This document shows, in pieces, positions 30,152-60,823 of a stretch of 64,000 nt of DNA. A program made the position numbers and the translations under genes. How positions within the stretch are numbered: the stretch's first letter is position 1; every line of letters starts with the position of its first letter. The stretch comes from a virus. The notes below the pieces were generated by a model. The model did no database searches. It was not told where the DNA came from and saw only the letters and a list, made by a program, of their open reading frames with translations. The stretch spans positions 1 to 64,000 of IMG/VR virus record IMGVR_UViG_3300047558_000049. One strand, 5' to 3'.

Positions 30152-30152
30152 C

Positions 30153-33100
30153 ATGGCCTACTCAATTCGCCTCCCAGATGGTTCGCTGGTTCAGAACATC
30201 CCTGACAACATTCCACCACACGAGGCGAAGGCTCAAATCCTGCAATCCCGACCTGAGTTCGGCGACACCAAACGTTCATGGGGCGAAGCTGCCGGTGACA
30301 TCGGCGCAAGTGCGTTATCTGGTTTGGGCTCGTTGGCCCAGCTCCCCGGCCAAGCCTATGGGCTGGCCACAGGTGACTTCGATACTGGCATCCTGCAAGG
30401 AGCCAAGAAGTTGTCCAAGTTTGGTGAAAGCCTCAAGTCGGAAGGCTTGCAGGCACGCGAAGCAAAGCGCGACATCAAAGTAGCTGAGGCCGAGAAGAAC
30501 GGCCAGCTCAGTGCATTCGGCACGTCGTTTGCCGAGACAGTCAAAGACCCCGCACTGTTCACATCGTTCCTTGCGGAACAACTCCCACAACTGTTTGTGC
30601 CCGGCTCCGCCGCTATGGGTGCTGGCCGCATGGCGTTTGCCAAGGCTGTTGCCTCTGGCGCTGGTGAGAAAGCTGCTACCGCTGCCGCAGTTGCCGCCGG
30701 TACGGCCGCAGCCAAAGGTGCTGGCGCAGTTCAGCAAGGTGCCGATGTTGGCGCTCAAGCCTACGAAGACCTCTACAAACGCCTTGTCAAAGACGGCAAG
30801 TCCAAAGAAGAAGCCGCAGCCCAAGCTATTGGTTTAGCGCGTGCCACCGGCGCAAGTGCAGCGGCTATTTCTTGGTTAGCGCAGGGCTTGCCCGGCGCAC
30901 AGGCACTTGAGAAGGCGCTCGCAGGTGGCGCTACGAAGTCTGGCATTGCCAAGGCGTTTGCCGCAGGTGCAGCCGGTGAGGGCGTCAGCGAGATGGTCGA
31001 AGAAGGTGGTGGTAAGTTCTCGCAGAACTTAGCCATGCGCGACATTGACCCAACCCAAGCCTTGATGCAAGGTGTCGGTGCTACTGCGGGTCAAGCGGCC
31101 GTTGGCGGTGTTGGTATGGGCGGTGCCGCAGGTGCTATCTCCAGTGGTCGCGGTCGCCCCGATGTGGCGCAGGTAGCCAAAGCTGCCAACGTACCGGCTA
31201 GCGATTTAGAGAAAGCCAATAACGAACGCATCCTTCGCCAGCAACAAGAACAACTGAGCGCCGCACAAGGCAAAGAAGCCCGTGCCGGTGAGAAACTTCT
31301 CGCAGCAGAAGACGCAGATTTGGCTGCCCAAGCAGCCGCAGACAGCAAGGCACGGGGCGAAGCACTCGCTGCTCAAGAAGCAGAACTCCGCGCAAAGCGC
31401 GAGGCTGACCTGCAAGCAGCGTTCCCTTCCGACTACCAAGATGTGATGGCTGGTGCCAACGCATACGCCGAACTGTTCAAAGAGAAGCAGTCGCTTGAGG
31501 GTGAGCGCAAGACCAAAGAAGTCCGCGCTCGCATCGCGCAGCTCGACGCCCGTATGCTTGAGATTACGGAAGCTGACACCCGCGTGGCTTCTGCTGTGGC
31601 ACAACTGCAAAAAGATCAAGAGAAGCTGGCAAAAGCCGCTGGCTTCCCCGCCAAGAAGTCTGCCAAGGCTATGGAGAACGCGCCCGCGCAGATGGAAATG
31701 CGTGAAGCGTTGGATGTGCCCACCCAACCACAGACCGATTTGTTTGGTAACCCACTACAAGTCGCGCCTGACGAAGCCACACCGACCGCAGGCGACTTGC
31801 TTGACGGCGTGCCCATGACCACGCAGAACCTCGAAGACGCAGGGCTTGGTCCGACACGCAAAGAGATGGTTGCCGCAGGACAGCGCAATCTGTTCCAACA
31901 ACGCCAGCCACGCGGCGGGAAAACCTCCACGCCAACACAAGCTGACACCGGTTTAGAACAAGCCGTCACAACAGAAGAGCAACCAGTTACCGAGCCCAAG
32001 AAGGTTGAGAAGCCTGTCGCGCTCACACCTGAGACTGTGCCCACCACCGTCACACCCGACGTGCTGGGTGCCTTGGGAATTGGCCGCACAGCCACGATTC
32101 GCAAAGCCGACCACGGCATCATGGGCAAAGACATCGCCGACCCAGCACAAGCTGGGGAAGTCAAGTCCATTCTTGAAGCCTACAAAGAAGGCCGTAGTGC
32201 CCCCATCCAGCAGAAGATTGATGCCTACCTCGCACGACCAGAGTTCCAAGCCGCCGCGCCTACCGCGCCGACTACAACGGGAGAAACAAATGCTCGACCA
32301 GTTAAGCAAAAAGGACGTGGAGCTAGCGTTCCAGCACCTGTCGAAACCGATACAGGAAGCGCCGCCCCCGCAGTTGCAGAATCTGAACGAGCTGGAATGG
32401 TTCCTGTTGGACAGGATGTTGGCGCAGATACTGGCCGAAAAGCAAAGTCAGCCGCTCCAGTAAACATGTTTGAGCAGTTGGTGCAGAAGGAAAAAGCGCC
32501 AGAAGAAGGCACTACACCCGACACCACGCTCAAGTCACTCCCCGACGATGTTGAGGCAGAAGTCCCCGTCCATCTCCGCCCGTGGGGTGGCGTACAGCTA
32601 TGGCGTCCAGAATCTCAAGGCGCGGAAGCAATGACCGACGTGCAGGCCGCCCTCCAAGAGAAAGCACGAGCGGGTGATGTACGTGGTGCCTTGCAGGCTA
32701 TCCTTGACGCGCCAGCAGGTGTGTACAACGAACTCGACAAGCTGGTGGCAAAACGTCTGCTGGCTGCTAGCTCGCTACCCACGCTGGAAGTTGTGGCCGC
32801 CAAAGAAGGTTCACCTGACGGTACGTACGATGCCGTGAACGACCACGTGCAGTTGACTGAAGGTTCGGTCGGCAGTCACACACTCTTGCATGAGTTGGTC
32901 CACGGGTTCGTCCACCGCATGATTGCCCTGCACGAAGGCGGTATCTCCAAGAACCTGCATATCGGTAACCTGCGCCAGCTCTACGACTTTATCGCCAAGC
33001 AACATCCTGAATTGGTGAAGACCTACGGCATGACAAACCTGAGCGAGTTCGCCTCTGAGGTCATGTCAAACAAGGCGTTCCAGAAAGAACTGCAAAAGAT

Positions 33101-35960
33101 TACCTACCGCCGCGAGAACGCTTTCACCGCGTTTGCCAAATCCGTGCTGCGCATCTTGGGCATCTCCCCCACCGACCAGAACACCGCACTGGGCTCTGCC
33201 CTGATCTCGGTTGAAGCTGTCATGGGTGAAGGCCGCCGCCTGCAAGAATCCGCCAAGGGCACGAACGTCGAAGGCTCTCTCGACAATATCGCCAACGTGT
33301 GGGGTCAGGGCACACTGGATGCCATCCGCCAGATTCAAGATGCTGTCGGCTCCGATACCCCCGAACAAGTTGGTGGGGTAATGGAACAAGCGTTGAGCGG
33401 TATCAAGCGTGCGCGTGAGAAGACAGGTATCTTGGCGGCGTTCCGCCAAGCCGCCGTGAACAAGTACGCCACCGTGGAATCCAAGGTTTCGCAGATGTTC
33501 TCGCAAGGCGTGCGCGATGCGTTCGGCAACCTGAACCCGATGTTGCTGGTGCGCCAAGCTGACGACAGTGCCAAGACCATCATGGACTTCTTCCGCGCTG
33601 GTGGTATCCGAATCAACAAAGATGGTTTGGTAGAAACCTTCGACACCGACGCATCCGCAACACAGGCGCTCAAGGAAATCCAAGCGTTTGCAGAAGCCGA
33701 AGGCATGGACTTCGACAAGGCGAAGAAGGACATCTCCACCGTGTTGGAAGGCCACCGCCTGCACTCAATCCGCGAGTTCAACAACCAGCTTGAGCAGTCA
33801 GCCAAGATACTGGAAGCCCAAGGCAAGAACAAGCAAGCCGATGCAGAGCGTGCCCGCAAGATTCGTCTGCACATGACGAACCAAGAGATCGACACGCTCG
33901 AAGAAATCTACCAATCTACCCCCCGCATCCAGAAGGTGCAGGAAGTGTTCAACGCAACCCGCGGTCAAGCGATTGACTTGATGGTGGCCAGCGGCCGCAT
34001 CACCAAAGAGCGCGGTGAAGATTGGAAATCGAACTCTGCCTACGTGCCGTTTGACCGTGTGCTGGAAGACATTGGCCCCAACCCTATGCCACGTGGCAAG
34101 GGCTTGGCCGTACTCGGCAGCGACCCAAAGATCAAAGGCTCGATGGAGAAGCCAATCAAAAACGCCATCGACTCGTACATGAACACCCTCGGCTGGATGG
34201 TCGAAGATGCCATGAAGAACCGCGCTGCGGTCGAGTTGCTGGAAACTATGGCCGGTGTTGGTTACGCTGAGAAGCACGCCAAACCTAGCATGGCCAAGAA
34301 TGAAAATCTCGTGGTGCCCCGCCTATTCCAAAACGGCGAGCCTGTGTACTTCGAGGTGCAGAACGAGTTCGATATGGCTGCGTTCCAGCAGGCCCCAGAG
34401 ATGACCAACTGGCTCATCAAGGGTCTGGCCGCCACCTCACGATTCATGCGCACCAGCGTCACGGCAATGCCACCATTTGCGGTCAAGCAGGTGCTGGAAG
34501 ACGCGACCCGTGCTGCCATGTATTCCGGCGTGGAGCGCCCACTTGTTGTGGCAATGAAGACTTTGTACAACCTGCCCCGCACCTTCTATGGTGAGTGGAC
34601 CGGCAAGAAGTCTCCTATGGTCAAGCGCATGGAAGAGTTGGGCATCATCGGTGACTTCGACTTCAACATCTACCAGCCAACCACCGAGATCGAAAAAGAA
34701 ATCGGCGCAAAGAAACGTGGCACCGCGGGCACGATCTTCCACAGGCTCGAACAGTTCACCAAGGCATCTGACTTGGCCGCACGCTTGGCTGTGTACGAAG
34801 AGACGATGCGCGACACCAACGGCGACGAAGTGCTGGCCCAGACCCGCGCACGCGAACTGATTAACTTCAACCGCCGTGGTTCGTCAGGTACCATGAACAC
34901 GCTGTCCCGCGTGATTCCCTTCTTCAACGCGTACGCCCAAGGCTTGGATGTACTGTACCGTTCAGCGTCTGGTATCGACTCGACCAGCTCGATCGAACGT
35001 GGTGCAGCACGTCGTTTGTTCTGGAGCCGTGTTGGCATGATGACTGCCTTCGGCATGATGTACGCCTTGGCCATGTCGGGCGACGACGGCTACGAGAACG
35101 CAACGGATGACGTGCGTGACAACAACTGGATTCTGCCCGGTGGCTTCAAACTGCCTGTGCCAAAAGAATTGGGCTTCATCTTCAAGGTCATCCCAGAGCG
35201 TGTCGTCGAATACGCCAAGCGTTCTGGTACCCCAGAAGAGCAGAGCGTAGCTGAAGCGGTCACTGGCGTGCTCAAGTCGGCGCTGTCCACCTACGGTATG
35301 CCAAACACTGTGCCGTCCACCATCCGCCCTGTGCTGGAGAACATGACCAACTATTCGTTCTTCTTGCAGCGTGAGTTGGAATCCACCTCGATGCAGGGTA
35401 AGGAGCCCGGCCAGCGTTACACATCCAGCACATCTGAGTTGGCCAAGGCGATCGGTGAAGCCACTAACATGTCGCCAATCAAGATCGACAACCTCATCCG
35501 CGGCTGGTTCGGTATGGTTGGTTCGACTACCCTGCTGGCTACCGACGCGATGTTGAACCCAACACGCCCTGACCGCCCGATCTACCAGATGCCGTTTGCC
35601 AGCATCTTCTTGTACGACACGATTGGTGGCCGCGCCAAGAATGAGTTCTACGACGTTCAGAACAAGGCAGCGCAGGCTGAGAACACCTTCAACGATCTGC
35701 TGGAGAAGGACCCTGCCAAGGCTGAGAAATACCTTGAGAAAAACGAGGCTCTGATTAACGCAGCACCGGTGCTGAACTCATCTCTCGAAGAGCTGTCCAA
35801 CTTGCGCCGATTGCGCCTAATGGTGGAGCAGGGTACCGACGAAGAACTCGGCATGGATGGCGCGGAACGCCGCAAGTTCATCGACGAGATTCGCCAAAAC
35901 GAAAACGAGTCCCTGCGCTACGTGCGCGAGTTGAAAAAGCAAATCAACGACGCGCAATAA
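30153..35960 (+). CDS. Giant virion / polyvalent protein with zinc-protease motif
   Basis: A 1,935-residue protein, about a tenth of the left arm. ATG 30153 is preferred because MAYSIRLPDGSLVQNI is a conserved start. Features in order: a polar N-terminus; Ala/Gly-rich hydrophobic helices (about 180-345); charged coiled coils to about 510; a disordered Pro/Thr region; HELVH at about 913-917, a zinc metallopeptidase-type motif; long helices; and a C-terminal part (about 1530-1700; QFTKASDLAARLAVYEETM, FNRRGSSGTMNTLSRVIPFF) resembling the large polyvalent-protein domain LPD38. Such proteins enter the cell with DNA. It ends at the convergent terminator. Confidence 0.72.
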   Translation: MAYSIRLPDGSLVQNIPDNIPPHEAKAQILQSRPEFGDTKRSWGEAAGDIGASALSGLGSLAQLPGQAYGLATGDFDTGILQGAKKLSKFGESLKSEGLQAREAKRDIKVAEAEKNGQLSAFGTSFAETVKDPALFTSFLAEQLPQLFVPGSAAMGAGRMAFAKAVASGAGEKAATAAAVAAGTAAAKGAGAVQQGADVGAQAYEDLYKRLVKDGKSKEEAAAQAIGLARATGASAAAISWLAQGLPGAQALEKALAGGATKSGIAKAFAAGAAGEGVSEMVEEGGGKFSQNLAMRDIDPTQALMQGVGATAGQAAVGGVGMGGAAGAISSGRGRPDVAQVAKAANVPASDLEKANNERILRQQQEQLSAAQGKEARAGEKLLAAEDADLAAQAAADSKARGEALAAQEAELRAKREADLQAAFPSDYQDVMAGANAYAELFKEKQSLEGERKTKEVRARIAQLDARMLEITEADTRVASAVAQLQKDQEKLAKAAGFPAKKSAKAMENAPAQMEMREALDVPTQPQTDLFGNPLQVAPDEATPTAGDLLDGVPMTTQNLEDAGLGPTRKEMVAAGQRNLFQQRQPRGGKTSTPTQADTGLEQAVTTEEQPVTEPKKVEKPVALTPETVPTTVTPDVLGALGIGRTATIRKADHGIMGKDIADPAQAGEVKSILEAYKEGRSAPIQQKIDAYLARPEFQAAAPTAPTTTGETNARPVKQKGRGASVPAPVETDTGSAAPAVAESERAGMVPVGQDVGADTGRKAKSAAPVNMFEQLVQKEKAPEEGTTPDTTLKSLPDDVEAEVPVHLRPWGGVQLWRPESQGAEAMTDVQAALQEKARAGDVRGALQAILDAPAGVYNELDKLVAKRLLAASSLPTLEVVAAKEGSPDGTYDAVNDHVQLTEGSVGSHTLLHELVHGFVHRMIALHEGGISKNLHIGNLRQLYDFIAKQHPELVKTYGMTNLSEFASEVMSNKAFQKELQKITYRRENAFTAFAKSVLRILGISPTDQNTALGSALISVEAVMGEGRRLQESAKGTNVEGSLDNIANVWGQGTLDAIRQIQDAVGSDTPEQVGGVMEQALSGIKRAREKTGILAAFRQAAVNKYATVESKVSQMFSQGVRDAFGNLNPMLLVRQADDSAKTIMDFFRAGGIRINKDGLVETFDTDASATQALKEIQAFAEAEGMDFDKAKKDISTVLEGHRLHSIREFNNQLEQSAKILEAQGKNKQADAERARKIRLHMTNQEIDTLEEIYQSTPRIQKVQEVFNATRGQAIDLMVASGRITKERGEDWKSNSAYVPFDRVLEDIGPNPMPRGKGLAVLGSDPKIKGSMEKPIKNAIDSYMNTLGWMVEDAMKNRAAVELLETMAGVGYAEKHAKPSMAKNENLVVPRLFQNGEPVYFEVQNEFDMAAFQQAPEMTNWLIKGLAATSRFMRTSVTAMPPFAVKQVLEDATRAAMYSGVERPLVVAMKTLYNLPRTFYGEWTGKKSPMVKRMEELGIIGDFDFNIYQPTTEIEKEIGAKKRGTAGTIFHRLEQFTKASDLAARLAVYEETMRDTNGDEVLAQTRARELINFNRRGSSGTMNTLSRVIPFFNAYAQGLDVLYRSASGIDSTSSIERGAARRLFWSRVGMMTAFGMMYALAMSGDDGYENATDDVRDNNWILPGGFKLPVPKELGFIFKVIPERVVEYAKRSGTPEEQSVAEAVTGVLKSALSTYGMPNTVPSTIRPVLENMTNYSFFLQRELESTSMQGKEPGQRYTSSTSELAKAIGEATNMSPIKIDNLIRGWFGMVGSTTLLATDAMLNPTRPDRPIYQMPFASIFLYDTIGGRAKNEFYDVQNKAAQAENTFNDLLEKDPAKAEKYLEKNEALINAAPVLNSSLEELSNLRRLRLMVEQGTDEELGMDGAERRKFIDEIRQNENESLRYVRELKKQINDAQ

Positions 35961-43334: not shown

Positions 43335-44009
43335 TTACTTTCTTCCACAGTGAGCGCACTCGCTCACCCAGCAGTAATTTTTACACAAACCGTTGGGTTT
43401 TGCATTCCAAACTCCACTGCTATATGCACCTTCCAGCATGGTGATGGTTGGCATCCAGTTGCCCCAGTAACGGTGCTGTTGCTGGGCTTCGTAGACAGCG
43501 GGCACAAACTTACCTTCGGTCAGGAACAGCAGGCCGCCTTTGACCTTTGTGATGTTTGGCCAACGCTTAAACACGGCCAAGGCCATGAGTTCGAGCTGGC
43601 TCACGTCAGCGTAGCGGCTCTTGCCCATCTTGTAGTCGATGACACGGGCTTCGTTCTTCTCGTGGTCGATGATGAGCAGGTCGGCCACGCCACGGAACCA
43701 GCAGTCAGCCGCAAAGAAGTCACATGGTTCCAACGCTTCGGTCAATGCGAACTTGATCTCGCAGTGCTTTTCGCCGGGGATGCGCTTCAATGCGTCCAAG
43801 GGTTCCTGCATGAAGTCGAACTTCGGGGGGATGGGTGTGCCGTCCTTGATGTAGAACTCGGCGGCACTGTGTGCCTCCTTGCCGTACATCGCCGCTTCGC
43901 CTTCGGGCTCTTTCACATCCTTGAGTACACGCGTGTGGTAATACTTCTTGGGGCAAGTGGTAAAAGTTTTCAGGCTAGAAAACGACCATGCTGGAATCTT
44001 AGCAGTCAC
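43335..44009 (-). CDS. RecB/Cas4-like PD-(D/E)XK nuclease
   Basis: A 224-residue nuclease of the PD-(D/E)XK class. Metal-site residues are visible at KEAHSAAEF (H47), FRGVADLLIID (D110) and VIDYKMGKS (D125, K127). Cysteines at 19 (TTCPKKYY) and at 209, 213, 218 and 221 (CKNYCWVSECAHC) have the arrangement of the 4Fe-4S cluster of AddB/Cas4 proteins. It probably processes DNA ends during replication or recombination. It overlaps the polymerase gene by 11 bases. Confidence 0.85.
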   Translation of the reverse strand: MTAKIPAWSFSSLKTFTTCPKKYYHTRVLKDVKEPEGEAAMYGKEAHSAAEFYIKDGTPIPPKFDFMQEPLDALKRIPGEKHCEIKFALTEALEPCDFFAADCWFRGVADLLIIDHEKNEARVIDYKMGKSRYADVSQLELMALAVFKRWPNITKVKGGLLFLTEGKFVPAVYEAQQQHRYWGNWMPTITMLEGAYSSGVWNAKPNGLCKNYCWVSECAHCGRK

Positions 44010-45888
44010 CGTACGACACTCCCATACCGCTTTCGCAGTTCACTGGTAAACCTTCTGCCCATGATGGCGTCCAACGCATACACGTCTCAACGTAATCACG
44101 AGCCTCGTCAGACTCTTCATGCCGCGCAACAATGCCGATAGCATCGTGAACCGTGAGGACCACTTTGTATCGCTTGGCAATCTTTAACATCTGTTCACCG
44201 ATGATACACCGCGCTATTGCTTGTGTGAAGTTTTCTACGACCTTTCCACCATAAATCTTGTTCGCGCCTTTTCGTGTTGTGTACTGAAACTGACGCTTAC
44301 CTTCGGCGTCTACAACTTCTTGCAAGCCGTTGTAGAAAATGTGCAGGCCGTTCGGAAGCAAGATGCCGTGTTCGTCCACGGTCAGCAAGCCATCGCGGCC
44401 GAGGGTCATCGTCTGCCCACGTACCATGCACCGTAGGGCTTCTTGCGACTCGCGCCAGAGCTGGGGGATTCGAGGATACGTCTCACGGTACGTTGCGATA
44501 ATCCGCGCAGCTTCCGCTGTGTCAATCTCAGTGCCAAAAGTTTTGAGTTGAGCTTGGAACTTGGGCCCTCCCATACCGTAGCCAGCACCAAGAATGGTTG
44601 TCTTACCCACAAATCTCTCCGGCGCATCAACAGCAGCAACCGGTTTGCCGTAGATTGCCGATGCCATGATCTTGTAAACGTCATCGCCATTTGCAAACGC
44701 TCCTACTAAGTCGTCTTGATTGGCCTCCCACGCAAGCGTGCGGGCCTCGATTTGAGATGAGTCAGCGTCGATGAAGACGTAACCCTCTGGGGCCACGATG
44801 GCCTTCTTGAGCTTGCCTGCGTTCGCGCCACGGCTCGGCAGGTTCTGCAAGTTGATTGAGTCAGTACCACCCCAACGGCCAGTGTGCGCCGCGTAGTATT
44901 TCAACGGGATGGGGAACGGCCCGCGCTTTGAGATGTCGATGAACCGCTGGGTGCGGGTCTCTTCCAGCGTGGATTTAGTGCCCAGACGAGCTGCGCACAA
45001 TGCCTGCACCCGTGTGTCGGGATGCTCCAGCAAAGCCTTGAAGCCTTCGTCCGTCTTGGCAAACGCCCACGTCTCTTTGCCTGTGGTCATGCTGATCTTG
45101 AGCGGGGGGTTCACGCCCAAACCTTTCAACATCTCAGCAAACTGTGGGTTGCTCATCAACGTCTTGCGCACCGTGGCCTTGGTTTCCTCGTCACCCAAAA
45201 TGTGCTTGACCGCCAACTCTTTGTGCCCGATGGACTGCAAAGCGTTGACTAGGTGGTTGGTCTTCTGCGCGGCGGTGTCAGCCAAGTGCATCTCAAGGCT
45301 CTTGGTATCGAGCTTCAACACGGGGTGGATGAACATGCTCAGGGTCAGGTCAATCAGCTTGAGTTCCATCTTAGGGAACCCAGCAGCCATCATCTTGTTG
45401 AAGATGAGGTACGTCAGCTCAACGTCCTTGCGGCAATACTGACCGTAGTTGTGCAGCTCCATCTGTGTGAAGTTGCGGAGGTGTTTGCCCTTGGCGTCGT
45501 TCACCTCGGTGCCCTTTTCCCCCACACCGTAGCGCAACGACATGTTGGCCAGAGATACGCTGGCATCCACACCGTGCAGAGCGCGGCCCATCGACATGGT
45601 ATCTAGCCAGCCTTTGGGTTTGATGCCGTACAGCCACGACAGAATCGCGCCATCGAACATGGCGTTGTGAGCCAGCACAAGTGAGTCAGACCAAGGCAGC
45701 ATGGCCAAGGCAGCTTCGATCTCAGGCCCCGTACCTGTCACCCAGCGCGTGATGCCGTCGTCGATCTTGTAGGCAAAGCCAATGGTCTCGAAGTTCGGGC
45801 TACGCACGTACTCCTCAGTGCTGATCTTGCTCAGGCTGTACTCTTGGTCATAGTACGTCTCGAAGTCGATTGTGATGAGGTGTGTCAT
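43999..45888 (-). CDS. Family A DNA polymerase with 3'-5' exonuclease
   Basis: A 629-residue replicative polymerase. Exonuclease motifs: ITIDFETYY (D8, E10), LAHNAMFDGAI (D79) and YCRKDVELTY (D155). Polymerase motif A is FIDADSSQIEAR (about 372-383), motif B RFVGKTTILGAGYG (about 425-438), motif C LTVHDAIG (about 578-585). In motif B the residue matching E. coli Phe762 is Leu (433), not Phe or Tyr. Length and order match T7-type polymerases without the thioredoxin loop being obvious. It overlaps both neighbours. Confidence 0.95.
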   Translation of the reverse strand: MTHLITIDFETYYDQEYSLSKISTEEYVRSPNFETIGFAYKIDDGITRWVTGTGPEIEAALAMLPWSDSLVLAHNAMFDGAILSWLYGIKPKGWLDTMSMGRALHGVDASVSLANMSLRYGVGEKGTEVNDAKGKHLRNFTQMELHNYGQYCRKDVELTYLIFNKMMAAGFPKMELKLIDLTLSMFIHPVLKLDTKSLEMHLADTAAQKTNHLVNALQSIGHKELAVKHILGDEETKATVRKTLMSNPQFAEMLKGLGVNPPLKISMTTGKETWAFAKTDEGFKALLEHPDTRVQALCAARLGTKSTLEETRTQRFIDISKRGPFPIPLKYYAAHTGRWGGTDSINLQNLPSRGANAGKLKKAIVAPEGYVFIDADSSQIEARTLAWEANQDDLVGAFANGDDVYKIMASAIYGKPVAAVDAPERFVGKTTILGAGYGMGGPKFQAQLKTFGTEIDTAEAARIIATYRETYPRIPQLWRESQEALRCMVRGQTMTLGRDGLLTVDEHGILLPNGLHIFYNGLQEVVDAEGKRQFQYTTRKGANKIYGGKVVENFTQAIARCIIGEQMLKIAKRYKVVLTVHDAIGIVARHEESDEARDYVETCMRWTPSWAEGLPVNCESGMGVSYGDC

Positions 45889-51010: not shown

Positions 51011-51194
51011 TTGATTCCCCTTTGATGATTGGTTTTACATGGCATGAATGGTGGAGGGTGCTGAGACCCTCCCCCTCTAGTTGGCAGACGTACCGCCATT
51101 TGTTCTTCCACAGGTAGCGCCCGAGGAACGTGAACCGTTGGCCTGTACGTTTGAGCATGAATCTCGCCCCTTCGGGCAGCTCCCGTAGAAACAT
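50985..51194 (-). CDS. Small basic protein
   Basis: A 69-residue protein from ATG 51194 in a TGATG overlap with the SPFH gene. It has FLRELPEGARFMLKRTGQRF, TFLGRYLWKNKWRYVCQLEG and a C-terminal His/Cys-rich end (HHSCHVKP, THHQMG). The small beta-barrel-like pattern is of the kind seen in nucleic-acid or protein binding adaptors. Function unknown. Confidence 0.52.
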   Translation of the reverse strand: MFLRELPEGARFMLKRTGQRFTFLGRYLWKNKWRYVCQLEGEGLSTLHHSCHVKPIIKGESNVTHHQMG

Positions 51195-51997
51195 CACTTC
51201 ACGTGAATGAATGGCGTGGCGTTGCCCGACATAGTGGCAGGCAGCTTGCCGTCCCACTTCTTGATGGCTTCGAGGTCAACGAACTGCTGGCCGCCCTGTG
51301 CTGACACGGCAGATGCCTTGATACGGATTGCATCGGCTACACCCTGAGCCTCGACACGCATACGCTCGGCTTCGGCCTTGGCCAACTCAACTTCCTTCTG
51401 CTTGGCGTTGATCTGGAATTGGCGGTTGGCCGCTTCCATGATGGCCTTCTCAAGTGCGGGGTCGGTCACGAGGTTACGCACGTTGGCACTACGCACAAAG
51501 AACCAGCCCTTACCTGCTGACTCGTCGAGGTCCTTCTGCAACTGCTTGACCACATCGGCAGCGATTGACGTGCGCTCAGTGTGTACCGTGGCAGAGCCGT
51601 ACTTGGTCACCGTGTTGTAGATGTTCTCACGTGCTTGGCGGGTCACATAGTTCATACCGATGCGTGCGCCGTCTTCGCCCTTCTCATAGGTTACGTCGCC
51701 CGGCCAGCGGGTCATGATGTCCGCAGCTTTGCTTGGGTCGATCTGAATGTAGATGTCCACGTCCAAGTCAGACAGTGTGATCTTGTCGCTTGTCTGCGGC
51801 TTCATGTCGTCGAACTTCAGCAAGAGTTCTTTTGCAGATACCTCGGTCACACGTTTGAACATGGTGAAGTACACGCCCGGCGGCATGGTCTCATGCTTGA
51901 CCTGACCCAGCGTGGATTCCACACCGATGTTGCCCGTGTCGATTTGTGAACATGCTGTCAGCCAGACAGCGGCGAATGCGATTAAAAGTCGTTTCAT
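51194..51997 (-). CDS. SPFH/prohibitin-like lipoprotein
   Basis: A 267-residue protein from ATG 51997 (AAGGAGAGATAC upstream). A signal peptide ends in a canonical lipobox, LLIAFAAVWLTAC, so Cys16 is lipidated. The body is a Band-7/SPFH domain: NIGVESTLGQVKHETMPPGV, ITLSDLDVDIYIQIDPSKAA, a helical VTDPALEKAIMEAANRQFQI and a coiled-coil AEAERMRVEAQGVADAIRIK. Such proteins form membrane rings like HflK/C and stomatin. A lipidated phage copy could alter host protease or membrane organisation. Confidence 0.82.
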   Translation of the reverse strand: MKRLLIAFAAVWLTACSQIDTGNIGVESTLGQVKHETMPPGVYFTMFKRVTEVSAKELLLKFDDMKPQTSDKITLSDLDVDIYIQIDPSKAADIMTRWPGDVTYEKGEDGARIGMNYVTRQARENIYNTVTKYGSATVHTERTSIAADVVKQLQKDLDESAGKGWFFVRSANVRNLVTDPALEKAIMEAANRQFQINAKQKEVELAKAEAERMRVEAQGVADAIRIKASAVSAQGGQQFVDLEAIKKWDGKLPATMSGNATPFIHVK

Positions 51998-52007
51998 GTA
52001 TCTCTCC

Positions 52008-52199
52008 TTAAAAGATTTTTCCGGAACCAAAAGTAGCTTGCGTCATGAACGCCAGCCATACGAGTAAGAACAATGCCACCACCTTGAACAGATGTGTGCC
52101 ACGGAACTTACGCAAAGCGTCCTTGGCCTCGCTCGGCAGGTAGTACCAACCGAAGTAGCCAATGAACACAATTAGGGTGAGGGCAATGAGATGTTTCAT
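52008..52199 (-). CDS. Two-pass small membrane protein
   Basis: A 63-residue protein from ATG 52199 (AGGAGG upstream). MKHLIALTLIVFIGYFGWYY and LFKVVALFLLVWLAFMTQAT form two membrane helices joined by a basic loop. It precedes the SPFH gene by 10 bases. A partner of the SPFH lipoprotein is possible from linkage only. Confidence 0.58.
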   Translation of the reverse strand: MKHLIALTLIVFIGYFGWYYLPSEAKDALRKFRGTHLFKVVALFLLVWLAFMTQATFGSGKIF

Positions 52200-52501
52200 T
52201 TCCACGTCCTCCACATATAGACACCGATAAATATCCACATGCACACACCGATAGCCAAGTACGCCTTGTCTTGCCAGCGTTGCTCAGGTGGGTAGAACGA
52301 TTCCATGCCGTCACCTAGATGGCGGAACGCATCGTCTGTTGTGCGTGGGAAGCACCGTGTCGTAGGGCAACCGTGGTTGTCGATGTAGTGCTGGGCACGT
52401 TCACGTGTCGATGCACGTACAACCTTGGGCTTCTTATAGATAGCGACGAGCAGCCTACGCTTGACTCGCGTCTTGATGATTGTGTAGATACGGTTAAACA
52501 T
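52196..52501 (-). CDS. C-terminally anchored membrane protein
   Basis: A 101-residue protein with a basic N-terminus (NRIYTIIKTRVKRRLLVAIY), a Cys-containing middle (NHGCPTTRCFPRTT) and one C-terminal membrane helix (AYLAIGVCMWIFIGVYMWRT). It overlaps both neighbours. No family recognised. Confidence 0.55.
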   Translation of the reverse strand: MFNRIYTIIKTRVKRRLLVAIYKKPKVVRASTRERAQHYIDNHGCPTTRCFPRTTDDAFRHLGDGMESFYPPEQRWQDKAYLAIGVCMWIFIGVYMWRTWK

Positions 52502-52860
52502 TATTTAATCTCTCCAAAAAATCTGCCTTGGGTTGGGTCCCCAGTGCCGTCATAGAAAGCACTCATCTTGTCTTGTGCCATGTCAATGATGACCTTACGC
52601 TTCTTCACAAGATGCTTGCTGTTCTCAGACACCAGCCAGTACGCGTCACCGATGCGGTGGCCGATGGATTTAATCTCACCCATAGGGTCAACCATACTGA
52701 GCAATGCCACATCCTTGCGTACCCAATCGGGCAACGCCTCGTCCGTGAACGTAGCACTGGGGCCGATCGTGTCTGTCGTGTTCTCAAGGTAGCACGTCAG
52801 CGACCAGCGCCCGCTTGGTTTGCGCATTACTCGGTATAGGTAGTCTGGGTGTCGTTGCAA
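52501..52860 (-). CDS. Protein of unknown function (TTG start)
   Basis: A 119-residue protein. TTG 52860 is chosen because GAAGGAAAG lies just ahead and the reading frame upstream overlaps the VWA gene without support. It reads LYRVMRKPSGRWSLTCYLEN, WVRKDVALLSMVDPMGEIKS and MAQDKMSAFYDGTGDPTQGR, typical of a mixed alpha/beta protein. Position after the VWA gene suggests it may belong to the same module, but no function is visible. Confidence 0.52.
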   Translation of the reverse strand: MQRHPDYLYRVMRKPSGRWSLTCYLENTTDTIGPSATFTDEALPDWVRKDVALLSMVDPMGEIKSIGHRIGDAYWLVSENSKHLVKKRKVIIDMAQDKMSAFYDGTGDPTQGRFFGEIK

Positions 52861-52870
52861 TTTCTTTCCT

Positions 52871-54040
52871 TCACATATGAACGGTAACGCCGTTAGCAGC
52901 GGTGATATGTCGGTTGTCAGCGATACACCAGAGTATTGGCGCAGGCCAATCGGTGCCCCAGCTTCCGAAGACTTCACCGTCTGTAAGCATGACGATACAG
53001 TCGGGTTTGATATTGTGCTCATTGAGATAGGCAGACATGCACTCGGGGTCGGTGCCGCCGCCACCTTTAGGCTTAGTGGATTCGCGCAGTGTTGATAGCG
53101 CGGCTTCGTCATAGGTTTCGTGTGCTGCAACGTTGTGCCCCCAGTAAATCAGATCGACCATCTCAGGCTTCACAGAATCAAAAATTGATTGCGCCTCGGA
53201 CAAGAAAGCAGCCAGTTCCTTGTTGCCAATAGAGCCAGACGTGTCTACGCCCACCGCGATGCGGAAGATGCGATCACTGAAGGTTGTGGGCAACATCAGG
53301 TCTTGGCTTTGGAAACGTCGATTGATACGACGATAGCTTGAGTAGTCGTCGCCAACCTTACTGTTCGTGATGAACTCACGCAACGCCTCACGCCAATCAA
53401 CCTTAGGCTCCAGCATGTCGAGTAGGGCGCGGTCAACGTTCACGCCAGCCTTGGATGCAAGGATGCCGCCTTGACGCAACGCGCCGTCAATCGTGCGGGC
53501 CAGCTCATCCACCTCATCAGGTGTCATGTCTTCGGTGCTGTCCCAATCGTGTTGGTCGAAGCCTGCATTGCCAGACTTACCTGCGGAGCTGCCACCGTTG
53601 GGGTACTGTTGCTTGAGCTTGCGGAACACCTCACCTGCGTCCATGCCACGGTACTGCTCGTCGAGGCAACCACCATCAGGCAGTTTGACGAAACGATCTT
53701 TGAGGTAGCGGTCGTTGATCGGCAGGTTGATAACGAAGTCACACGCCATGTTCGCAAGCATGGGGTCTTCCTTATACATCCAGCGCCAGATGAACGTGTG
53801 CTTAAACGCGCAGTGCATCTTCTCATGCAACACCAAACCCATCAGCTCTTGGTCAGACAAGGTAGCAATGAATTGTTGGCTGTACTTGGTGTTCACGCCA
53901 TCGGTACATGCGGTCACCGCAGGGTCATCGACCACTTCGGTTTTGCCATACATGATGATGCCAGCAAGCATCATGTACTCAGGGTCACGGATGAGTGACA
54001 CGTGAGCGCGTTCGAGTCGCTGTTGTGGTGTTAAGTTCAT
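52871..54040 (-). CDS. VWA/metallopeptidase-like protein (DUF2201-type)
   Basis: A 389-residue protein. The N-terminal part holds LVLHEKMHCAFKHTFIW with HExxH at about 72-76, the metallopeptidase-like DUF2201 signature. The C-terminal part is a von Willebrand A fold whose MIDAS is VGVDTSGSIG (D266, S268, S270) with GGGGTDPE near 330. Such proteins act with MoxR-type ATPases in assembling or activating other proteins. ATG has GGAGG upstream. The partner ATPase lies 0.7 kb upstream. Confidence 0.85.
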   Translation of the reverse strand: MNLTPQQRLERAHVSLIRDPEYMMLAGIIMYGKTEVVDDPAVTACTDGVNTKYSQQFIATLSDQELMGLVLHEKMHCAFKHTFIWRWMYKEDPMLANMACDFVINLPINDRYLKDRFVKLPDGGCLDEQYRGMDAGEVFRKLKQQYPNGGSSAGKSGNAGFDQHDWDSTEDMTPDEVDELARTIDGALRQGGILASKAGVNVDRALLDMLEPKVDWREALREFITNSKVGDDYSSYRRINRRFQSQDLMLPTTFSDRIFRIAVGVDTSGSIGNKELAAFLSEAQSIFDSVKPEMVDLIYWGHNVAAHETYDEAALSTLRESTKPKGGGGTDPECMSAYLNEHNIKPDCIVMLTDGEVFGSWGTDWPAPILWCIADNRHITAANGVTVHM

Positions 54041-54041
54041 A

Positions 54042-54404
54042 TTACCTCCGGCCTATCGGCCCTTTCGATCTGAGTTTCTTGAGTTCGGCTAAGTCTTTGC
54101 TTACCTGCTCGGCGTGTCGCTTCACAGCTTCGTCAACCATCGGCCCGAGGAGCCGCTGTACTTCGCTACCCACACCATCAGCCAGTATCAAGCGCAGGTT
54201 ACGTTGCAATTGGTCTTCAAAGTAATGCTTGAGTGGTGTGCGCATGGTTTTAAGCTCTGCGTCAACCAGCTTGCCTGATACCCAACTGCAAACCTCGGGG
54301 CGATCGAACACCGCCGCCATAGCTGCGTGGATACGGTCAGTCACAACGTCGCCGTCTTTCAACAGCATCCACGCATCAGCCTTTTGCTTTTCTTCTGGTG
54401 TCAT
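54042..54404 (-). CDS. Helical protein within MoxR/VWA module
   Basis: A 120-residue helical protein from ATG 54404. It contains DAWMLLKDGDVVTDRIHAAM and QLQRNLRLILADGVGSEVQR, ending in a basic helix (ELKKLRSKGPIGRR). It lies between the ATPase and VWA genes and is coupled by ATGA, so it probably belongs to their complex. No family recognised. Confidence 0.55.
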   Translation of the reverse strand: MTPEEKQKADAWMLLKDGDVVTDRIHAAMAAVFDRPEVCSWVSGKLVDAELKTMRTPLKHYFEDQLQRNLRLILADGVGSEVQRLLGPMVDEAVKRHAEQVSKDLAELKKLRSKGPIGRR

Positions 54405-54712
54405 CGTGAGCCCTTCCAAGGTAGGGGTTGAATTGCATTCTGGTTGTTAGCTATCTGACCAGATGTGTTGCTGGCAAACTGCGAGTTGTATATCTGCTGT
54501 GCCATTTGATTCTTGGTGTTCATCATCGACTGCGCCAGACTGTTCTGATACTGCTGTGATTGATACGCCATACGCTCCCGCTCAAGGGTATCGAGCGCGT
54601 TTTGTATTAGCTGTGGGTTCTTCAGAAGCACGGCGAGAATCTTCTTCTCGACGGCTTCATCCGCAGACAACAGTATGGCGGCGTTCGCTTTGTTGTTATC
54701 TTTCTCGTTCAT
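54401..54712 (-). CDS. Gln/Asn-rich helical protein in MoxR/VWA module
   Basis: A 103-residue protein from ATG 54712, four bases after the ATPase stop. Its first half is charged (AILLSADEAVEKKILAVLLK) and its second half is Gln/Asn-rich (RMAYQSQQYQNSLAQSMMNT, NNQNAIQPLPWKGSR). Such low-complexity polar regions can drive assembly. It is translated with the VWA partner genes; role unknown. Confidence 0.52.
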   Translation of the reverse strand: MNEKDNNKANAAILLSADEAVEKKILAVLLKNPQLIQNALDTLERERMAYQSQQYQNSLAQSMMNTKNQMAQQIYNSQFASNTSGQIANNQNAIQPLPWKGSR

Positions 54713-54716
54713 GGCA

Positions 54717-55772
54717 TCACACGAACATGTATTGATTCTGGATAGCGAAGCCCGTGAACTTGCTGTTGTCGAGCACGAACGCCTTGCTGTCTTTCTTGAT
54801 AGCAGTGGTGCAGAACAACGCTTGCATTTCCTTGGGCATACGTGCCATGTAATCCATCCACGCATCGAGTGTGCCTTCCTCAACCCAGTTCAACGCTTGG
54901 TGAGTCAGCATCATCTTGCCTGCGATTTCCTTAGGCATCTTGGCGTTCTCAGGGTCAGCAAGAATCTCGGCACGCTTGGGCAACGAGTCACCCATAGCAA
55001 TCCACGCTTGCAAGTCAACGGTAGCTGGCGCACCGATGGTGCCGATCAGTGCCACCTCAAGCGCGTTGTTGGTGAAGCGATGACGGTTGTTCACGATCTT
55101 GCTGGCCTGTGTCAACGAGCGGTGTGTCACGAACGCAGTGCGTTGTGCCTTGGGGTGGAAGATGTATGGGTTGTCGTTCGGGTCTTGGTAGTGATCGAAC
55201 GGTGCCAACGCCTCGGGGCGCTCACCTGCCCACATGATGATCTCAGGTGCCACGCCATTGAGTGATGCGTAGTCGTCAATCCATTCCTTAGCGGTAGGCT
55301 TGGCCATCTTCACGAATGATAGGCGGTTGCGGTGGTGTGCTTGGAACGTATCGCCCACAGACTCAGAGCCTAGGTTGGTCGTTGCAAACACGATGCTGTC
55401 AGGGTGCAGGTATTGGTTACCCAAGCGGCGCTCAACCAGCAGAGGTAGGGCCGCATCTTTCACAGGCTTGGATGCCTTACCCATCTCGTCCAGCATGAGG
55501 ACGACAGGCGTGTTGTCGTGCATACCCAGCGAAGCGTTGGGGTAGAACTCAGATGACTTGGTTGCGTGGTCAACAGCAGGTACACGGAAGTCACCCTCGT
55601 GCATCACAGTCATGTCGAGGTACATCTTGCGGTGCGTAGGGAAACGCTTGGCCACCATGTCGATCAAAGATGATTTACCAGAACCGATGTGGCCCTCAAC
55701 AATAGTGGTCACGTCAGCGCCAGTGGCGGAGATAAAGTCAACGGTCTCGTTGTAGTTCATGTGAGCTTGCAT
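54717..55772 (-). CDS. MoxR-like AAA+ ATPase
   Basis: A 351-residue AAA+ protein. Walker A VEGHIGSGKSSL (about 25-36), Walker B VVLMLDEMGK (about 90-99), sensor-like FATTNLGSES and HHRNRLSFVKM follow. MoxR proteins remodel or insert metal or ligands into clients together with VWA proteins, in line with the gene at 52.9-54.0 kb. It starts after CTGAAAGACTACT. It lies 17 bases after the DUF3150 gene upstream. Confidence 0.88.
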   Translation of the reverse strand: MQAHMNYNETVDFISATGADVTTIVEGHIGSGKSSLIDMVAKRFPTHRKMYLDMTVMHEGDFRVPAVDHATKSSEFYPNASLGMHDNTPVVLMLDEMGKASKPVKDAALPLLVERRLGNQYLHPDSIVFATTNLGSESVGDTFQAHHRNRLSFVKMAKPTAKEWIDDYASLNGVAPEIIMWAGERPEALAPFDHYQDPNDNPYIFHPKAQRTAFVTHRSLTQASKIVNNRHRFTNNALEVALIGTIGAPATVDLQAWIAMGDSLPKRAEILADPENAKMPKEIAGKMMLTHQALNWVEEGTLDAWMDYMARMPKEMQALFCTTAIKKDSKAFVLDNSKFTGFAIQNQYMFV

Positions 55773-55789
55773 AGTAGTCTTTCAGTTGG

Positions 55790-56656
55790 TTAGATTTCAA
55801 GTTGGAATTTTTCTACGAGGTCATTCATCTTTGTCTTGACTGACTCACGTAGCTCAGGGGACTCACGTAGGGATTTGATGTCTACGTTCTCTAATGACAG
55901 CTCAAGCTGTCGTCGTGCTTCTTCTAGCTTGGGGTCGTCCAGCACGTTAAGCGATTTCAATGTCTCGCACAAACGCAGGGCGTTCTCAAGCATGGATGCA
56001 AACAACTTCGATGGCTTGCCATCTTCTTTGGGCACCATCTTGTTGCGGATGTGGGTGATCTCTAGATACAACCTATCCCACGGCTCGATCATGGCATCCT
56101 CAAGGCGGTCACGCATGGTCGCTTCGAACTTGTCCTTGAGCTGCTGTGCGGCCTCGGCAGGTATGTCTACACGGAAGTCACCAGACTCAGGCACAGGTGT
56201 GAAGTGGTAGCGTAGGGCAAACTTCTTATGGAGGTCTGACGCGTCAGGGTACTCTTTCGAATCGAAAAGTTTTCCCAGCTTGAAAGCCTGTGCTGCTACC
56301 TTTGTCGAGTAGTTATTCACAAACCTATCCACAAGCGCGTTGAACTGTTGCTCGTGCTGATTCAGCTCGTGGCTAATGTCGAAGAACGCTTTGGTTGGTA
56401 CCAAGCGTGTGCCTGTGTCTGACCACGGCAGAGTCACCTGATACAACCATGTGCGCACCAAGCCAGCGTACGAATTGATCGCGGCTAGGTCATCGTCCTC
56501 AGCAAACAGATTCTTGTGAACCGATGTAGCTGAAGCACGTGCGCCCTTGGCCAAGCTAACCTCGTTGGCTGTTGCCTTGTCTTGCTTGCGCCCTGTGTAC
56601 ACAGAGATGTTTAAGTCGAGCAGCATCGCACTCGACGAGAGTGATTTATGTTTCAT
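55790..56656 (-). CDS. DUF3150-like protein (partner of MoxR/VWA)
   Basis: A 288-residue helical protein beginning MKHKSLSSSAMLLDLNISVY. Its coiled coils include LYLEITHIRNKMVPKEDGKP and LEEARRQLELSLENVDIKSL. In many phages a DUF3150 protein is encoded beside MoxR and VWA genes and is thought to be their partner or client. Its ribosome site AGGA lies in the right half of the palindrome at 56661-56674, so any protein bound to that palindrome could block its translation start region or transcription. Confidence 0.78.
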   Translation of the reverse strand: MKHKSLSSSAMLLDLNISVYTGRKQDKATANEVSLAKGARASATSVHKNLFAEDDDLAAINSYAGLVRTWLYQVTLPWSDTGTRLVPTKAFFDISHELNQHEQQFNALVDRFVNNYSTKVAAQAFKLGKLFDSKEYPDASDLHKKFALRYHFTPVPESGDFRVDIPAEAAQQLKDKFEATMRDRLEDAMIEPWDRLYLEITHIRNKMVPKEDGKPSKLFASMLENALRLCETLKSLNVLDDPKLEEARRQLELSLENVDIKSLRESPELRESVKTKMNDLVEKFQLEI

Positions 56657-56660
56657 GATT

Positions 56661-56674
56661 TCCTACCGGTAGGA
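56661..56674. promoter_or_regulatory. Palindromic site A (TCCTAC-CG-GTAGGA)
   Basis: A perfect 14-base palindrome TCCTACCGGTAGGA in the short gap between two - strand genes. Its right half on the - strand provides the AGGA ribosome site of the DUF3150 gene. Member of the right-arm palindrome family. A two-base centre is too small for an RNA hairpin, favouring a dimeric DNA-binding protein. Confidence 0.75.
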
Positions 56675-57136
56675 TTAAGCAGTGCGCAAGATTTCGATCT
56701 TGTTCGTGGTCTTGTTGGTGCACACCTTGTGCGAGTCATTGCCGAAGCACTTGGCCGCAGCGTTGGACACCGTACTGAGCAAGTCGTGCAGATTCACGTC
56801 ACACATAATCATCTCAGGGGTCAAGCCAATCTCGGCCACATCACCAACCTTGAGGCATTCAACGTAAGGCAAGACTGCGTTGCGCATCGAACCGTATGGC
56901 ATTTTCAAAGCGCGGCGTTTGGCTTCTTTTTTGGGGGGCTTGGCGGCCACCAGTTCCAAAGAACCCTGCGTGATAGTCGTGCCATCGCTCAAGCGAATGA
57001 TGTACTCAGTACCAGCCACAGCCAGTAGGCGCAGCGCCTGCTCGATGGTACGTTTGACAATCTCAGGCGCAGTAGATGCGGCGAGAGTAGGGTTTGTTAC
57101 TTGGTTCACGGTGCGTGAGTTGTTTGCGTTTGTCAT
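56675..57136 (-). CDS. Protein of unknown function at module start
   Basis: A 153-residue protein with a strand-rich middle (TEYIIRLSDGTTITQGSLEL), then basic PPKKEAKRRALKMPYGSMRN and VLPYVECLKVGDVAEIGLTP. The C-terminus holds Cys-containing strands. It lies just downstream of a strong promoter and starts the DUF3150/MoxR/VWA operon. The basic segment suggests nucleic-acid contact; regulatory role is possible. Confidence 0.55.
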   Translation of the reverse strand: MTNANNSRTVNQVTNPTLAASTAPEIVKRTIEQALRLLAVAGTEYIIRLSDGTTITQGSLELVAAKPPKKEAKRRALKMPYGSMRNAVLPYVECLKVGDVAEIGLTPEMIMCDVNLHDLLSTVSNAAAKCFGNDSHKVCTNKTTNKIEILRTA

Positions 57137-57163
57137 AGAAGTTTCTCCAGTTAATTTGTTTAC

Positions 57164-57199
57164 ATGATGAAGTTTACATCATAAAGTTGGTTGTGTCAA
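57164..57199 (-). promoter_or_regulatory. Promoter with overlapping palindromic operator
   Basis: Read on the - strand: TTGACA (57199-57194), 17-base spacer, TAAACT (57176-57171). A 19-base inverted repeat ATGATG-TAAACTT-CATCAT overlies the -10 box (57164-57182), so a bound repressor would shut the promoter. It lies just after the stop of the 131-residue gene and drives the 153-residue gene and the MoxR/VWA module. Confidence 0.82.
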
Positions 57200-59737: not shown

Positions 59738-60823
59738 TCACTGTGGCATGTGCAAGGTATCGAACACAGTACACAACACGCTGTCCATGTCGTGCGTCTC
59801 GGCGAGTGCTTGCCAACGCTTGATAGCCTTGGGCGTGATCTTCTTCTTGTCGAGGAACTTCAACGCGAACTCAGGGTCTTCGGGGTACACAGACTCAGCG
59901 GCCATCCACAACAACTCGTCAGGCCAACCGAACTCTGCGTCAGTCAACGCGTCTTGCAAGATGCCCGTGCCAAGCATGTCATCGTCATACGAAGAAAGCC
60001 ACCAGTTCTTCTTGCCGAACGCAGAGCCTTGGTACTTGTCCTCGACCTCACCAGCTTTCCTACTCGTAGGAAGTTTGTCCCACTTGATGTTGAGCACAGC
60101 TTCACTCAATGCAATGAAGTGTTGAATGTCGAGGGACTCGTGTTCGCTATGCTCACGGGCGTAGCCTACCGATATGTTGGTGCATTCGGGGATGATGTCA
60201 ACGAACTCGGCTGTGTCGGTATAGACACCGCTGTCGTCAGGCAGATACATCATGCGCTCGTCTGCGTTCAATGCGTCAGCTAGTGCTTGGCCAAACGCAT
60301 CAGAGCAACAACGACCCCACCCTTGGTGTGTGATAACGCTGTCGATACCACGGCGGTCAAAGGCAATGGCTCGGTCGAACTCACCCAGTAGGTCAGCGTG
60401 ATGCTCGGCGATATGCTTGGCACCGATGCCGCCACATTCCTCACCCTGCGAGAAGATGTAATAGCCAGCCACGTCATTGTGAATCAGGTGCATGAGCATT
60501 GCACAGCCAGCGCCGTCATCTGCGCCGAGTGGTGCGCCATTCGCGTGCCAATGTGTATCGGTCTTGCGAATCTTGTTAGCACCTACCTCACGATGCACTG
60601 TGTCAACGTGTGAGATGAACAAGGTACGGCTGTCACCATCGTGTCGATTGTCTACGTGCAGGTTGTCGCAGTCATCGAGGAACGCACGTTCAGCGAGATG
60701 CACAGGTAACTCTTGCCACAGCCATTGCGTAAAGAAGTCAACGCTAGGTGTATTGTGTGGTCGCTTCATAGACAGGCCACGAGCGAGAGTTGTATAGAGG
60801 ATAGAGTGTTTGTTGAATGTCAT
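59738..60823 (-). CDS. M28/M20-like zinc peptidase
   Basis: A 361-residue metallopeptidase-like protein. Zinc-site motifs: ISHVDTVH (H72, D74), PLGADDGAG (D102, D103), FSQGEECGGIG (E128, E129) and the late REHSEHESLD near 222-231. This pattern fits M20/M28/M42 aminopeptidases or carboxypeptidases. A phage-coded enzyme might process a host or phage peptide or a peptidoglycan fragment. A palindromic site of the regulatory family lies within the gene at 60057-60072. The start is ATG 60823 with GGAAAC upstream. Confidence 0.85.
   Translation of the reverse strand: MTFNKHSILYTTLARGLSMKRPHNTPSVDFFTQWLWQELPVHLAERAFLDDCDNLHVDNRHDGDSRTLFISHVDTVHREVGANKIRKTDTHWHANGAPLGADDGAGCAMLMHLIHNDVAGYYIFSQGEECGGIGAKHIAEHHADLLGEFDRAIAFDRRGIDSVITHQGWGRCCSDAFGQALADALNADERMMYLPDDSGVYTDTAEFVDIIPECTNISVGYAREHSEHESLDIQHFIALSEAVLNIKWDKLPTSRKAGEVEDKYQGSAFGKKNWWLSSYDDDMLGTGILQDALTDAEFGWPDELLWMAAESVYPEDPEFALKFLDKKKITPKAIKRWQALAETHDMDSVLCTVFDTLHMPQ
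60057..60072. promoter_or_regulatory. Palindromic site F inside peptidase gene
   Basis: TTCCTAC-TC-GTAGGAA with perfect seven-base arms, within the coding region for LPTSRKAGE of the zinc peptidase. It shows the motif also occurs intragenically, as known for other phage repressor sites. Confidence 0.7.

Follow-up and report, generated by a model that had tools for sequence, protein, structure and literature searches.

The window, a 64,000-nucleotide stretch of viral DNA (64,000 of the 64,773 bases of IMG/VR record IMGVR_UViG_3300047558_000049), carries a minus-strand operon that encodes a MoxR-like AAA+ ATPase, a protein joining a zincin metallopeptidase domain to a VWA domain, and a protein of the DUF3150 family. 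These three proteins recur together in phages, on plasmids, and in bacterial islands and, judged by sequence comparison, make up the conserved core of the locus with a small downstream gene (dn). We tentatively propose that they constitute a ternary, ATP-driven, and possibly proteolytic remodeling machine that serves DNA replication or recombination of mobile elements rather than virion assembly, a proposal that commands somewhat less than even confidence. Genes for MoxR-VWA pairs belong to the core of N4-like phages and turn up in hundreds of phage records, many of them misnamed “HNH endonuclease.” DUF3150 as a third component of the phage MoxR-VWA pair appears to be new and undescribed; it is unmentioned in the literature searched, the coverage of which excludes most subscription papers.

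The conserved trio in phages, plasmids, and islands

A profile search of viral contigs, many of which are fragments, recovered at least 493 relatives of the DUF3150 protein. Among distinct viral loci that extend 4.5 kb on both sides, the MoxR, VWA, and DUF3150 genes lie on one strand in 31 of 31. The preliminary description of this DNA is supported in its grouping of DUF3150 with a MoxR/VWA machine into a single unit. The order is MoxR-VWA-DUF3150 in 48 loci, DUF3150-MoxR-VWA in 19 distinct loci besides the window, and MoxR-DUF3150-VWA in the 65-kb phage group of Pag-Yong1, MinM2, and Pra-JY27. The distance matrices of the three proteins are strongly correlated in a set of 44 loci from phages, plasmids, and bacteria (pairwise r = 0.91 to 0.95; permutations all ≤0.27), which demonstrates co-inheritance of the trio, not contact. 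No relatives of the window were found at the DNA level in the phage collection.

The DUF3150 protein (288 residues; 55790 to 56656, minus strand) passes the Pfam cut-off for DUF3150 only (PF11348, 31.7 bits; cut-off, 24.9). Its predicted fold, with a predicted local distance difference test (pLDDT) score of 82, had no match in the PDB (best E = 0.47), and an assignment of function by fold was abandoned, the significant viral matches being DUF3150-like or unnamed phage proteins. The DUF3150 frames of three loci (L058, L093, and L098) contain one in-frame TGA in the translated search, probably upstream of the start codon.

The MoxR-like ATPase (351 residues; 54717 to 55772, minus strand) matches phrog_1297 (E = 2e-42) and reaches 17.5 bits against the Pfam model AAA_5, for which the cut-off is 22. 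Its motif set is complete, comprising Walker A and B, sensor 1, the arginine finger, and sensor 2, and Walker A (G27 to S34), Walker B (D95 and E96), N133, R150, and R218 are invariant or nearly so from the window to jumbo phage. By this alignment, the motor motifs are intact.

The presumed partner of the ATPase, the metallopeptidase-VWA protein (389 residues; 52871 to 54040, minus strand), has an HEKMH zincin motif and a VWA domain with a complete metal ion-dependent adhesion site (MIDAS). It matches PF13203 (DUF2201_N; E = 1.5e-20, 74.4 bits) and PF09967 (DUF2201; E = 3e-14, 53.6 bits), both above the cut-offs. Residues H72, E73, H76, and D101 and the MIDAS residues D266, S268, S270, T330, and D354 are invariant; two divergent copies have HExxxH instead of HExxH. 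The leading PDB matches to an AlphaFold2 model of the N-terminal domain (pLDDT, 77) were selecase, jannalysin, a Spartan/SprT-type DNA-protein-cross-link protease, ArdC, and IrrE. All of these we take to be HExxH zincins, and their ranking is consistent, although no match is significant by itself. The family of this protein (phrog_1314) carries the name “HNH endonuclease” in PHROGs and many phage records, although the members seen are metallopeptidase-VWA proteins; the DUF3150 protein of phage Tunturi_3 is likewise so named. In one related locus (L013), the first ∼110 residues of the VWA protein (positions 895 to 2085) are nearly identical to those of another (L007) and then diverge sharply, through either recombination or a chimeric contig.

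Beyond viruses, in an opportunistic sampling of plasmids and genomes, DUF3150 was found in 44 plasmid records. The Burkholderiales and Rhodovastum plasmids that were opened have the order MoxR-DUF3150-VWA, with other genes between in Simplicispira, and each gene of the trio had a profile E value of about 1e-43 or better in the three plasmids checked. Of 59 genomes from one bacterial phylum, 5 carry DUF3150 (0 of 14 controls), and all island copies with enough surrounding sequence belong to a trio in the order MoxR-DUF3150-VWA. The genes upstream of the island trios include one that is PD-(D/E)XK-nuclease-like by its motif, though unmatched in Pfam, and one for a single-strand annealing protein. 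The annealing protein is a Rad52-type protein in L101 and in L130, where its Pfam E value is 4e-21, and a Sak4-like AAA_24 protein in L131.

The IncA plasmid pRA1 has the order AAA ATPase (AAA_5 plus CbbQ_C)-gene-bet-exo-DUF3150-VWA; its DUF3150 protein matches PF11348 with an E value of 8e-89, and its VWA protein is CobT-like yet has HEAAH and a MIDAS (DMSSS). An IncA/IncC-type DUF3150-VWA stretch is present in 90 of 5,426 complete Escherichia coli genomes and offers a tractable test bed in that species. Presumably, the SXT/R391 integrative and conjugative elements also have a CobS-like gene after exo.

Three plasmids (L115, L121, and L123) have the trio adjoining PRTRC genes, and two of them (L121 and L123) have type IV secretion genes on the other side. 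PRTRC was set aside as a functional partner, the adjacency being limited to several Burkholderiales plasmids, and a literature search for a link between PRTRC and ubiquitin returned only an unrelated match. On a “Candidatus Manganitrophus” plasmid (L117), DUF3150 adjoins an AAA ATPase, DUF1257, and DUF2997, with no DUF2201-type VWA protein nearby, and perhaps has another ATPase partner there.

Operon, promoter, and genomic setting

The gene content given in the preliminary description, six open reading frames on the minus strand from 52871 to 57199, was confirmed, as was a tight operon behind a TTGACA promoter: the genes are 1 to 18 bp apart or overlap, linkA and linkB being joined by an ATGA overlap. 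The six genes stand as a unit, but its end at 52871 does not, since the unit is unterminated there and dn (52501 to 52860, minus strand; about 119 residues, TTG start) follows the VWA gene directly and belongs with the six. Across 16 close viral loci, the mapped gene order is leader, DUF3150, MoxR, zero to two small genes, VWA, and dn. In other clades the dn product of the window corresponds to the C-terminal domain of a ∼270-residue protein; the family is present in 66 of 88 loci, 43 of which have it immediately downstream of the module, and is more constant among relatives than linkA or linkB. The leader gene (56675 to 57136, minus strand) encodes a 153-residue protein with no Pfam or PHROG match. 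Its family is restricted to the clade of the window, with homologues that are 30 to 45% identical in 14 loci.

The sigma-70-like promoter TTGACA-N17-TAAACT (57171 to 57199, minus strand) is in all likelihood a genuine promoter recognized by the host RNA polymerase, because all 12 relatives that carry the leader gene have it in the same position and only 0.4% of random 160-bp stretches of the window genome score equally. The relatives have TTGACA or TTGACT, always with a 17-bp spacer, and 4 of the 12 have a perfect TATAAT. The promoter had also been described as operator controlled, on account of a palindrome over the −10 element (TGATGTAAACTTCATCA; 57165 to 57181, minus strand; 6-bp arms and a 7-bp gap). 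This did not hold up: random 160-bp windows equal or exceed its arm length in 37% of cases, the palindrome is not conserved in relatives, and no second copy occurs in the 64-kb window. A direct repeat over and past the −10 element, TGTAAAC-N7-TGTAAAC (57158 to 57178, minus strand), is seen with mismatches in 10 of the 12 relatives and is absent in L011 and L012; it is a possible, weak candidate for a regulatory site.

The virion genes of the window phage (terminase, portal, head, and endolysin) occupy the plus strand at about 0.2 to 36 kb. The minus strand from 36 to 48 kb encodes a replication block of DNA primase/helicase, helicase, PD-(D/E)XK (RecB/Cas4-like) nuclease (43335 to 44009, minus strand; PDDEXK_1, E = 2.9e-15), family A DNA polymerase (43999 to 45888, minus strand; phrog_17, E = 4e-88), and exonuclease, and small early-type genes run from this block to the end of the window. 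The module sits just upstream of the replication block and on the strand opposite the virion genes. In phages of the window lineage, PolA, the PD-(D/E)XK nuclease, an Hjc-like nuclease, and a helicase follow the module.

Three other genes of the window were recorded. A lipoprotein gene in the early region downstream of the module (51194 to 52030, minus strand) matches phrog_200 (E = 1e-45) and is SPFH/band-7-like. An M20/M28-like peptidase gene (59738 to 60823, minus strand; phrog_4191) belongs to a family that 15 of the 88 loci have upstream of the module. Residues 140 to 676 of a probable virion protein of 1,971 residues (30045 to 35960, plus strand) match the N-terminal portion of the N4 virion RNA polymerase family, a stretch that we take to lie outside the polymerase domain.

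Proposed function and alternatives

It is quite likely that DUF3150, MoxR, and the VWA protein form a physical complex. DUF3150 is the constant third part and is therefore the best candidate for an adaptor, although we regard the case for a client adaptor as evenly balanced. The trio is found on plasmids and islands, often beside recombination genes, and its job is therefore probably linked to DNA replication or recombination. Further, in three kinds of element the neighbors of the module are genes for exonucleases, annealing proteins, or replication, and the type of annealing protein varies (Bet, Rad52, or Sak4) while the module is constant, which points to clients in these processes; confidence that the clients act in DNA transactions falls just short of an even balance.

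The proposed machine would work as follows. The operon would be expressed early from its host-type promoter, and a MoxR hexamer would pull or twist the VWA protein via the VWA domain, by analogy with NorQ-NorD (PMC13036017). The zincin domain may then cut a client or hold it via the metal, active proteolysis being a shade less probable than the involvement of DNA-bound clients. DUF3150 would serve as a dedicated third subunit, with adaptor for clients as its most likely part, and linkA, linkB, leader, and dn would be accessory or regulatory. The clients would most likely be protein complexes on DNA that arise from replication or recombination of the mobile element.

Several findings weigh against this proposal. 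Genomic context is guilt by association, and within the phage lineage it could be accounted for by synteny through descent. In the window phage, no gene was recognized as encoding an annealing protein, and on most Burkholderiales plasmids the module has PRTRC and type IV secretion genes as neighbors rather than genes for recombination. The link between the DUF3150 proteins of pRA1 and the window runs through the Pfam model, direct profile comparison being weak, and the zincin fold matches of the N-terminal domain have E values of ≥0.13 and are nonsignificant alone (selecase probability, 1.00). Phage Tunturi_3 (L019) has DUF3150 with no detectable MoxR or VWA protein in its whole 97.6-kb record; conversely, Schitoviridae carry MoxR-VWA with DUF3150 undetected.

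Among the alternatives, counter-defense or host takeover, in which host proteins, immune or restriction complexes for instance, would be taken apart or degraded by the machine soon after infection begins, is unlikely but survives best. The early-type promoter would suit it, as would the sharing of the module between phages and conjugative plasmids, elements exposed to common defenses, and the antirestriction protein ArdC is among the fold matches of the N-terminal domain. Unlike the usual variable anti-defense genes, however, the module is core in N4-like phages (PMC4193335) and in the window lineage. The window proteins also had no match in PADLOC at an E value of ≤0.01, although PADLOC covers defense, not counter-defense, proteins.

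Rather less likely is a chaperone for cofactor or metal insertion like NorQ-NorD, CbbQ-CbbO, or CobS-CobT, with HExxH holding metal for a client enzyme. Characterized MoxR-VWA pairs act in this way (PMC13036017), and the pRA1 version is CobS/CobT-like by sequence, but no metalloenzyme client gene consistently adjoins the module and the HExxH pattern and fold are peptidase-like.

A more specific form of the remodeling proposal can be drawn, in which DUF3150 directs a MoxR-powered zincin to proteins that block replication or recombination intermediates. This would be a Spartan-like, ATP-dependent proteolytic activity shared by phages, conjugative plasmids, and islands, of which N4 gp24/gp25 would be a reduced form; in such detail the idea is a long shot, a little less probable than metal insertion.

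Slightly lower again stands a chaperone for virion assembly or processing, in which MoxR and the metallopeptidase-VWA protein fold and cleave structural proteins. This role has been proposed in print for group 2.2 jumbo phages, with the MoxR-VWA tail-assembly precedent of archaeal virus ATV cited in its favor (PMC7824862). Here, the virion genes and the module occupy different strands, and the module has its own conserved sigma-70-like promoter. The constancy of DUF3150 as partner and the presence of the trio beside annealing genes and on plasmids and bacterial islands, with no virion genes seen beside it, argue against virion assembly as a general answer, the presence on plasmids strongly so.

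The remaining question of composition concerns linkA (54401 to 54712, minus strand; 103 residues, Gln/Asn rich) and linkB (54042 to 54404, minus strand; 120 residues from ATG or 125 from TTG), which the preliminary description suggested could define a new complex. Profiles were searched against the close loci and proteins against 14 whole records of close relatives. No linkA homologue was found in any of the 14, its single weak match being a C-terminal one beside the VWA gene in L064. Full linkB homologues occur in 3 of 14 (L002, L014, and L003), and its N-terminal motif is also found in L015 and, by profile only, in L011, giving four or five of 14 in all. There is no gene between MoxR and VWA in 6 of 11 distinct close loci; L009 has an unrelated small gene in the linker slot, and L004 has an HNH-like gene one slot earlier. 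Paralogy of linkA and linkB is not claimed, the evidence being marginal (shuffle P = 0.003). The linkers are thus missing from most relatives that carry the module, a distribution that the preliminary description itself took to speak against its suggestion, and they are accessory and outside the conserved core. That a new complex with MoxR, VWA, and DUF3150 requires both of them as subunits is very improbable, despite their tight coupling in the window and the small proteins with a shared N-terminal motif that occupy the same slot in five relatives, given their scarcity among close relatives and the many loci in which the slot is empty.

Comparison with known systems

The MoxR/metallopeptidase-VWA pair of group 2.2 jumbo phages, proposed to act in virion assembly (PMC7824862), and N4 gp24/gp25, core in N4-like phages and of unknown function (PMC4193335, PMC7650795), share the MoxR AAA+ and DUF2201_N-VWA proteins of the window. 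DUF3150 is undescribed in those pairs; tblastn found homologues of the VWA protein in 555 phage records and of MoxR in 296, and the DUF3150 protein of the window has matches in only 4.

The bacterial MoxR-VWA ternary conflict systems of the VMAP, iSTAND, and FtsH types (PMC7159879) resemble the window in combining MoxR, VWA, and a dedicated third protein in one operon. In the window, however, the third protein is DUF3150 rather than VMAP or iSTAND, with no VMAP-C domain detected by Pfam, the genes are on mobile elements, and there are no effector domains. The window MoxR protein also lacks the VMAP-type N-terminal extension with aromatic motifs, as its P-loop begins at residue 27 and leaves no room for one.

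CobS-CobT, NorQ-NorD, and CbbQ-CbbO likewise pair a MoxR ATPase with a MIDAS-bearing VWA partner; in NorQ-NorD, the VWA domain inserts a finger into the AAA pore, and the partner is twisted as ATP is hydrolyzed (PMC13036017). The window differs in its DUF2201-type VWA protein and its third subunit, DUF3150. Its MoxR protein has no CobS or CbbQ_C match, and no window protein matched CobS in NCBIfam (TIGR01650) or CobT in Pfam. The pRA1/IncA-IncC region has all three parts, namely, DUF3150, a MoxR-type ATPase, and a VWA protein, and is distinguished from the window by ATPase and VWA proteins of the CobS/CobT type and by the insertion of bet-exo between them.

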